A DNA stretch of 45,125 nucleotides from Candidatus Zixiibacteriota bacterium (GTDB lineage Bacteria; Zixibacteria; MSB-5A5; GN15; JACZUZ01), in the NCBI GenBank assembly GCA_024280775.1, contig JAJRPM010000016.1:1-45125 (forward strand), written 5' to 3'. The translations under genes were made by a program, and so were the position numbers. The notes under the pieces are model-generated. The model worked only from the letters and a program-made list of their open reading frames with translations, did not search any database and was not told where the DNA came from. Of the stretch, positions 1 to 45,125 are shown in pieces. Position 1 is the stretch's first letter. Each line of letters begins with the position of its first letter.

Positions 1-86
1 CGAAGATAGTGATCTTCGGGGATGAATGAATCCAATGAAGGCAAAAGCATCATCGAATTCTCGGAATAATTTCGTTTCGTTTGCAT
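1..86 (-). CDS. Transposase N-terminus, IS1182-like (partial, copy 1)
   Basis: Reading from ATG at 86 on the minus strand gives MQTKRNYSENSMMLLPSLDS and then FIPEDHYL before the contig ends. The pattern 'LP-SLD-xxIPEDHxxR' is the N-terminal signature of DDE transposases of the IS1182 and related IS5-like families (InsH N-terminal domain). Only 28 codons are visible, so the catalytic DDE residues cannot be checked. No clear ribosome binding site precedes the ATG. An identical start lies at 45039 on the plus strand. Confidence is good for 'transposase start' and moderate for the IS1182 family. Confidence 0.7.
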   Translation of the reverse strand, partial: MQTKRNYSENSMMLLPSLDSFIPEDHYL

Positions 87-139
87 AAAAGAATCTATTG
101 ATTCAATATCCAAAATACCAATACTTTATCAACAGGCCC
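1..139 (-). mobile_element. 5' end of an IS1182-like insertion sequence, copy 1 (runs off the contig)
   Basis: This stretch is a perfect reverse complement of 44986-45124. The shared 139 bp starts with GGGCCTGTTGATAAAG (minus strand, from 139) and leads into the start of a transposase reading frame that leaves the window. Both contig edges therefore lie inside copies of one multi-copy element, which explains why the assembly stops here. The sequence flanking position 139 is one half of a palindromic repeat whose intact form is seen at 626-643. The family assignment rests only on the first 28 residues of the transposase. Confidence 0.8.
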
Positions 140-204
140 CTGCGCGGGTATGACGTATTGTGGCGCTTGGCGTGATTCGACTCAAGGGATATTCTCCAAC
201 CTCA

Positions 205-571: not shown

Positions 572-643
572 TTCCCGCGGAGGCGGGAATCTAGGCAACT
601 TTGTCATGCATCCAACTTGCCTGGGTACCCGCCTGCGCGGGTA
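572..643. repeat. Pair of 'cccgc-NNNN-gcggg' palindromes in inverted orientation
   Basis: The hairpin at 572-589 is TTCCCGC-ggag-GCGGGAA and the one at 626-643 is TACCCGC-ctgc-GCGGGTA. Each has a 7-bp stem and 4-nt loop, with a conserved tail on one side (ctaggcaac / ttgcctgg) and 'gtctt'/'aagac' on the other. The tails point toward each other, as in a BIME. Another intact copy is at 44855-44872. Half copies abut both IS ends (140-150 and 44975-44985). Confidence 0.85.
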
Positions 644-44649: not shown

Positions 44650-44768
44650 GTAGGTCGGGTTCCGGAGTCACATTCATGTGACGCAGAAACCCGACAATAT
44701 GCTAGTTTCGATAATCAGTAGAAATGTCGGGTTTCTTCACGTCTGCGACGCTACGGAACCCGACCTAC
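44650..44768. repeat. GTAGGTC...GACCTAC composite inverted repeat
   Basis: The left arm GTAGGTCGGGTTCCGGAGTC and right arm ending CGGAACCCGACCTAC are nearly identical to the element at 2460-2584. The loops (cattcatg, gtctgcgac) and the 30-bp centre differ. No gene is seen from 44586 to 44985. Confidence 0.88.
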
Positions 44769-44854
44769 TAGACTAACGATTCATACAGAGCAATTCCACG
44801 ACAACATCACACGCCAAAATACCCAAGATTATCAGCTTCAATCGCCCCTCGTCT

Positions 44855-44872
44855 TGCCCGCGCAGGCGGGCA
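44855..44872. repeat. Intact 'cccgc-NNNN-gcggg' palindrome, with an IS-interrupted half copy at 44975-44985
   Basis: TGCCCGC-gcag-GCGGGCA is a 7-bp stem with a 4-nt loop, flanked by gtctt on the left and tccaggcaa on the right. At 44975-44985 the sequence cgcccgc-ctac, preceded by the tail ttgcctagg, is the left arm and loop of another copy. Its right arm is displaced by the IS starting at 44986. Confidence 0.85.
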
Positions 44873-44985
44873 TCCAGGCAAGCTGATTCCGCAGATAATC
44901 TTCTAGCAAAGTGTCCCGTCATCTTAACTCGTCAGTACACACATAGCAAGTTGCCATATAGTTAATTGCCTAGGCGCCCGCCTAC

Positions 44986-45124
44986 GGGCCTGTTGATAAA
45001 GTATTGGTATTTTGGATATTGAATCAATAGATTCTTTTATGCAAACGAAACGAAATTATTCCGAGAATTCGATGATGCTTTTGCCTTCATTGGATTCATT
45101 CATCCCCGAAGATCACTATCTTCG
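44986..45124 (+). mobile_element. 5' end of an IS1182-like insertion sequence, copy 2 (runs off the contig)
   Basis: Perfect reverse complement of 1-139. It begins GGGCCTGTTGATAAAG directly after the loop of a palindromic repeat. TTGATA (44993-44998) with a weak GATATT about 16 nt on could be the transposase promoter. Position 45125 (c) extends the reading frame by one base beyond what is seen at the other edge. Confidence 0.8.
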
Positions 45125-45125
45125 C
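45039..45125 (+). CDS. Transposase N-terminus, IS1182-like (partial, copy 2)
   Basis: ATG at 45039 opens 29 codons, the last being CGC, so the visible end reads SFIPEDHYLR. This matches the 'IPEDHLxR' N-terminal block of IS1182/IS5-like DDE transposases. It is identical to the copy at 86-1 as far as both can be read. The catalytic domain is outside the window, so activity cannot be judged. Confidence 0.72.
   Translation, partial: MQTKRNYSENSMMLLPSLDSFIPEDHYLR

Follow-up and report, generated by a model that had tools for sequence, protein, structure and literature searches.

IS1182-like elements of Zixibacteria: apparent insertion at the tips of small hairpins with duplication of the 4-nt loop

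The window analyzed here, a stretch of 45,125 nucleotides, represents an entire contig (C2) of a Candidatus Zixiibacteriota genome of 3.17 Mb in 17 contigs. The contig begins and finishes within one and the same IS1182-like element. The features found at its two ends are listed below with their coordinates and strand.

1..139, minus strand: left-end fragment of IS1182-like copy 1, truncated by the contig end; 100% identity with 44986-45124 and with the terminal sequences on C3, C6 and C16
124..139, minus strand: left terminal inverted repeat GGGCCTGTTGATAAAG of copy 1; its right-end counterpart GGGCTTGTTGAAGAAG lies on C8, C12, C17, C7 and C9
140..143, plus strand: 4-nt loop CTGC (GCAG when read in the IS sense), one of the two copies of the duplicated target; partner at the start of C17
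144..150, plus strand: hairpin arm gcgggta; opposite arm tacccgc at the start of C17
572..589, no strand: unoccupied intact hairpin ttcccgc-ggag-gcgggaa; cccgc-N4-gcggg core at 574-587
626..643, no strand: unoccupied intact hairpin tacccgc-ctgc-gcgggta; cccgc-N4-gcggg core at 628-641
44855..44872, no strand: unoccupied intact hairpin tgcccgc-gcag-gcgggca; cccgc-N4-gcggg core at 44857-44870
44975..44981, plus strand: hairpin arm cgcccgc; opposite arm gcgggcg at the end of C9
44982..44985, plus strand: 4-nt loop CTAC, one of the two copies of the duplicated target; partner at the end of C9
44986..45125, plus strand: left-end fragment of IS1182-like copy 2, truncated by the contig end
44986..45001, plus strand: left terminal inverted repeat GGGCCTGTTGATAAAG of copy 2, the same IS end as in copy 1
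45039..45125, plus strand: first part of the transposase reading frame, MQTKRNYSENSMMLLPSLDSFIPEDHYLR, truncated where the contig stops; its mirror copy occupies 1-86 of the minus strand

A preliminary description of this DNA had placed the IS beside the loop of an intergenic hairpin at both of its ends. The flanks that it quoted (CTGC and gcgggta at 140-150, cgcccgc and CTAC at 44975-44985) and its three intact palindromes were all present, and so was the opposite orientation of the two flanking palindromes relative to the IS, the repeat showing its "gtcat" side in one flank and its "gcctgg" side in the other. The position beside the loop was likewise borne out; however, the two flanks adjoin the same left end in two separate IS copies rather than opposite ends of a single IS, since the contig is broken within the element at both sides. 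All contig ends of the genome were read. The right IS end, GGGCTTGTTGAAGAAGTTCTATTTTC, was located at five of them (C7, C8, C9, C12, and C17) and, together with the three left ends on C3, C6, and C16, the element terminates eight contigs besides C2. The assembly most likely breaks at the IS because the body of the element is a collapsed repeat. The left IS copy interrupts the first part (140-520) of a tandem near-duplicate of about 350 bp; the second part lies at 638-990, and both start near a cccgc-N4-gcggg hairpin.

The element possesses terminal inverted repeats, GGGCCTGTTGATAAAG on the left and GGGCTTGTTGAAGAAG on the right, and the same ends were found in its relatives. Only 29 N-terminal residues of the transposase are assembled in the window; these resemble the IS1182 transposases of three relatives, L084, L082, and L081, which scored 383, 364, and 370 bits on the profile NF033551 (cut-off 270) and also matched PF05598 and PF13751; DDE_Tnp_1 and DDE_Tnp_1_6 domains are present in relatives. 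The profile matches are to IS1182, with no IS3 model among them, in agreement with the earlier guess of an IS1182-like element. The IS body was not found in the genome except for a defective relative of 313 residues on C13, which scored 265 bits, just below the cut-off. A search of the same genome with PF13751 gave no match because the IS body is unassembled, and genomes of the same family yielded no further transposase copy. The defective relative (L011, 422-1516 of C13 in genome G000) is a shortened IS1182-like copy of 1,095 bp flanked by AGAG and TGAA, with no duplication.

The far sides of the insertions could be read from the right IS ends on other contigs. The preliminary description had proposed looking there for a restored hairpin and a duplicated loop, and this was observed at the start of C17 (gcag-gcgggta) and the end of C9 (ctac-gcgggcg) for the two copies in the window. 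In total, the left flanks were tcgcccgc-GAAG (C3), gcgcccgc-CTAC (window right), tacccgc-GCAG (window left), attcccgc-CTTC (C16), and atacccgc-CTTC (C6); the right flanks, in the IS sense, were GAAG-gcgggcg (C12), CTAC-gcgggcg (C9), GCAG-gcgggta (C17), CTTC-gcgggaa (C7), and CTTC-gcgggta (C8). All five left flanks could be paired with a right flank with identical loops, complementary arms, and consistent orientation of the repeat, so that in five of five copies the two arms are retained and the loop occurs twice. Based on this pairing, we infer that C3-C12, C2-C9, C2-C17, C16-C7, and C6-C8 are joined via the IS. The pairings of C16 and C6 hang on one outer base of the arm, since both loops are CTTC. 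The loop-duplication rule would scaffold the draft genome by five predicted contig joins. Had all ten flanks been drawn randomly from the hairpin repeat, the loops would still form equal sets with a probability of only about 0.003. Only 20 intact CCCGC-N4-GCGGG sites exist in the 3.17 Mb, compared with eight for a reversed control pattern; by position alone, each insertion would have a chance of about 8e-6 of lying where it does. The position of the flanks at hairpin loops is therefore not due to chance. The possibility that the hairpin is a part of the element was ruled out: the arms vary between copies, pair mutually, and are found in intact IS-free copies. An orthologous empty site was not found in the sole genome of the same genus, where a 69% identity match covered part of one flank and left the junction unaligned.

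The same pattern was observed in miniature elements of about 110-200 bp, which share the IS ends and are embedded in contigs of this genome, so that both flanks can be read. Examples are L012 (tacccgc-GAAG...GAAG-gcgggta, with dots for the element), L015 (ttcccgc-GCAG...GCAG-gcgggaa), and L008 (GAAG/CTTC); L013 lies in an unrelated palindrome of this genome (cacgtc-CAAG...CAAG-ggacgtg). These four and many others are MITEs: they are short and noncoding, share their ends with the IS, and carry the same target duplication. Apart from their unusual target, they are ordinary non-autonomous partners. The hairpin-tip target and the duplicated 4-nt loop of the preliminary description thus recur in every IS copy of the genome and in many miniature relatives. 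Full-length copies of the transposase-encoding relatives, in other genomes, are inserted in the same way. L084 is flanked by gccccacag-CTTG...CTTG-ctgtggg. In L081, TAAA is duplicated within cccacc-CTAAAT-ggtggg, and in L082 (atcccgcc-aTGAA...TGACc-ggcgggat) one base of the loop differs.

The terminal pattern was detected in 81 of 129 genomes of the class. A set of 101 same-ended elements with both ends, IS and miniatures together, was compiled from this one class of Zixibacteria and includes the five IS copies described above. An exact direct repeat of 4 nt was found in 47 of the first 86 elements, compared with 3.1 in permutations, and no other length was comparably in excess. In the enlarged set the duplication was exact in 57 of 101 (permuted expectation about 3) and differed at one base in a further 18; about a quarter (26 of 101), with at most two of four bases identical, have no matching 4-nt repeat. 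Complementarity peaked (0.69) at the center of the duplication, compared with about 0.25-0.35 elsewhere; it was 0.60-0.85 over stem positions 1-7 and at background beyond, which corresponds to a stem of about 7 bp. At the sites with an exact duplication the distribution of pairing was bimodal: all seven positions were paired in 23 of 57 and six or seven in 30 of 57. When a slip of 1 nt was allowed, at least six of seven pairs were found in 33 of 57 (permuted mean 3.5, maximum 9). Five representative sites fold as DNA into the predicted hairpin. The stem is weak or absent in approximately 40% of duplication-bearing elements, and in G003, a genome of the same genus, most of the newly read 4-nt duplications lie in poor palindromes. 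Copies in non-palindromic sequence and far-side flanks that fail to restore the hairpin would count against the preliminary description, and such cases were encountered only in part. Because some copies lie in poor palindromes, lack the duplication, or are flanked by two different hairpins, the preference for the hairpin tip is strong yet not absolute.

In some elements without the 4-nt repeat the flanks are the arms of two different hairpins (L250, L243, L010) or come from the same side of the repeat (L238, L169, L237, L239), with loops that are reverse complements (GAAA/TTTC, CAAG/CTTG). Replacement of the hairpin in the manner of IS1272 was considered for the duplication-free elements, but recombination between copies in oppositely oriented hairpins, itself unproven, explains several of them more simply.

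The sequences show directly where exactly the element sits, that 4 nt are duplicated, that the hairpin is restored, that the stems vary and covary, and that many miniature non-autonomous copies have the same ends. We consider it probable that the IS1182-family transposase selects small hairpins (stem of about 7 bp, loop of 4 nt) and joins the two IS ends at the edges of the loop, at a spacing of 4 nt. The transposase would act at the palindrome, probably as an extruded cruciform or an exposed single-strand hairpin, and we infer that the protein recognizes the structure of this extruded hairpin. One IS end would be joined at each edge of the loop, and after repair the element would be bordered on either side by a copy of the 4-nt loop and a single hairpin arm. 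Recognition may be helped by a weak preference at the half-site (C at position 5, with a pyrimidine-C-rich outer stem).

An alternative is that duplex DNA is targeted, with a fixed 4-bp stagger at a dyad-symmetric preference (outer YYC...GRR) that intergenic palindromes happen to fit best, and that no hairpin is formed. The duplication is indeed constant at 4 bp, weakly palindromic sites are also duplicated, and a half-site preference, although weak, exists (C at position 5 in 77%). Half-site reading, however, predicts no covariation of the arms, whereas the inner stem covaries over GC, AT, CG, and TA pairs. Stem sequences are highly diverse (GC 16, AT 13, and CG 7 at position 2; CG 18, GC 11, and TA 5 at position 3), and covariation exceeds the consensus expectation. 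It was observed at 228 of 308 compared with 170.8 +/- 10.1 in within-genome permutations (p<=0.0002); since elements within one genome are not fully independent, a set of 16 de-duplicated sites was also tested and gave 68 of 112 compared with 35.8 +/- 4.7. Background sites matched to the consensus are far less palindromic than the targets: the inner stem was paired in eight of ten consensus-matching targets compared with 18 of 114 background sites (Fisher p 5e-5). Pairing therefore appears to be selected beyond the half-site sequence, though sites with poor stems are also used.

The third argument against a duplex cut comes from a sister clade. The protein search that returned the relatives also recovered elements of Bacillota, and one of Geobacter, with the ends CAGMCTGTMGA; by model these are also IS1182, and they group in a clade apart from the loop-duplicating elements. 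Among 39 of them examined, 16 are flanked by a direct repeat of 19-39 bp that is exact in nearly every case (L089, L091, L095, L097, L098, L104, L106, L107, L113, L116, L120, L124, L134, L140, L147, and L149). The repeat is a complete hairpin, foot to foot, and is different in each element; in L107, for example, acgcgccctg-ttt-cagggcgcgt is found on both sides. Four others (L135, L121, L102, and L148) have no long repeat and a different hairpin at each foot. The length of the duplication in this mainly Bacillota clade follows the length of the hairpin. Duplication of whole hairpins of varying length is unexplained by a fixed-length duplex cut, and would be hard to explain without structure recognition. 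Taken together, we regard duplex targeting as unlikely.

The reading of a single REP family by sequence, as IS621 or ISPpu9 do, was also considered. It agrees with the location of all five IS copies of this genome in one repeat family, yet elements with the same ends occupy unrelated palindromes in other genomes and, in this genome, cacgtc-CAAG-ggacgtg; the full IS of L084 lies in cccacag-CTTG-ctgtggg. This reading is very improbable and is already largely refuted by the variety of stems. Least credible of all is an artifact of contigs broken at repeats or of insertions that survive only in non-coding hairpins: the IS copies are visible only as contig ends and intergenic insertions are expected to survive better, but the loop and arm agree between right and left flanks, intact miniatures inside contigs (L012, L015, L008) show the same pattern, and survival does not explain the exact placement on the dyad center.

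Targeting of palindromes by the IS1182 family is already known. IS1272 and TnSha1 of staphylococci target hairpins without sequence specificity, the structure being preferred; both delete the hairpin, wholly or in part for IS1272, and neither makes a target duplication (PMC5678879, PMC4923244). A review cited in these papers is said there, without detail, to state that some IS1182 members target palindromes. The elements described here share with IS1272 and TnSha1 the transposase family and the use of inverted repeats of unrelated sequence as targets. They differ in that the hairpin is kept and its 4-nt loop duplicated; replacement of the IS1272 type was seen in none of the five IS copies of this genome. 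Compared with PMC5678879 and PMC4923244, the loop duplication is the new part. It would correspond to "pathway c", which Wan et al. (2017; PMC5678879) drew as a hypothetical branch of the IS1272 model.

Targeting of loop edges in Zixibacteria may be one form of a more general behavior. On balance, we favor the view that IS1182-family transposases are structure-directed DDE enzymes acting on extruded hairpins, with a clade-specific point of strand transfer: the loop edges in Zixibacteria (4-nt duplication), the hairpin feet in mainly Bacillota (19-39 bp), and the 3' feet or stem in IS1272 (hairpin lost). If so, all three branches of the 2017 IS1272 model exist in nature. Structure-directed choice of target by a DDE transposase has so far been argued from IS1272 alone, an element that destroys the site it uses. 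In the present elements the target is preserved on either side, so that about 100 natural insertions directly record the choice of the enzyme, and shape versus sequence becomes testable by covariation and by simple target mutants. These data suggest that the transposons described here recognize DNA shape as well as letters.

Other insertion sequences also use palindromic repeats. IS1397 and ISKpn1 (IS3 family) insert into intergenic palindromic repeats, the enterobacterial palindromic units (cited in PMC1525189); they have another transposase family and use one repeat family, whereas the Zixibacteria elements use many unrelated palindromes. IS621, ISPpu9, and ISPpu10 (IS110 family) have REP palindromes as insertion targets (PMC1525189). 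These encode a guide-RNA DEDD recombinase, lack conventional long terminal inverted repeats, and target one repeat family; unlike them, the elements described here have clear terminal inverted repeats, a 4-bp duplication, and, in relatives, a DDE (IS1182) transposase.

Palindromes of a second type were observed in the window at 44650-44772 and at 208-325, the latter with a near copy at 688-825; GTAG-like tags adjoin the hairpin. These palindromes (cgtaggtcgggtt...aacccgac and gtaggtcaagtcccc...gggacttgac) resemble the GTAG-tagged REP superfamily (PMC3733652). A second repeated element also breaks the assembly of this genome. One of its ends, CTTGTATCTTGG..., was found at the end of C1 (L063), the starts of C4 (L049) and C5 (L050), and the ends of C8 (L068) and C13 (L071), in each case directly after the 3' foot of a hairpin that ends in CGAC. 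The other end (GTAGATACCGTC... when read outward) was located at the starts of C1 (L047), C9 (L054), C10 (L055), C14 (L059), and C15 (L060), with no adjoining hairpin. The second element may be IS200/IS605- or RAYT-like, acting on GTAG-tagged REPs.
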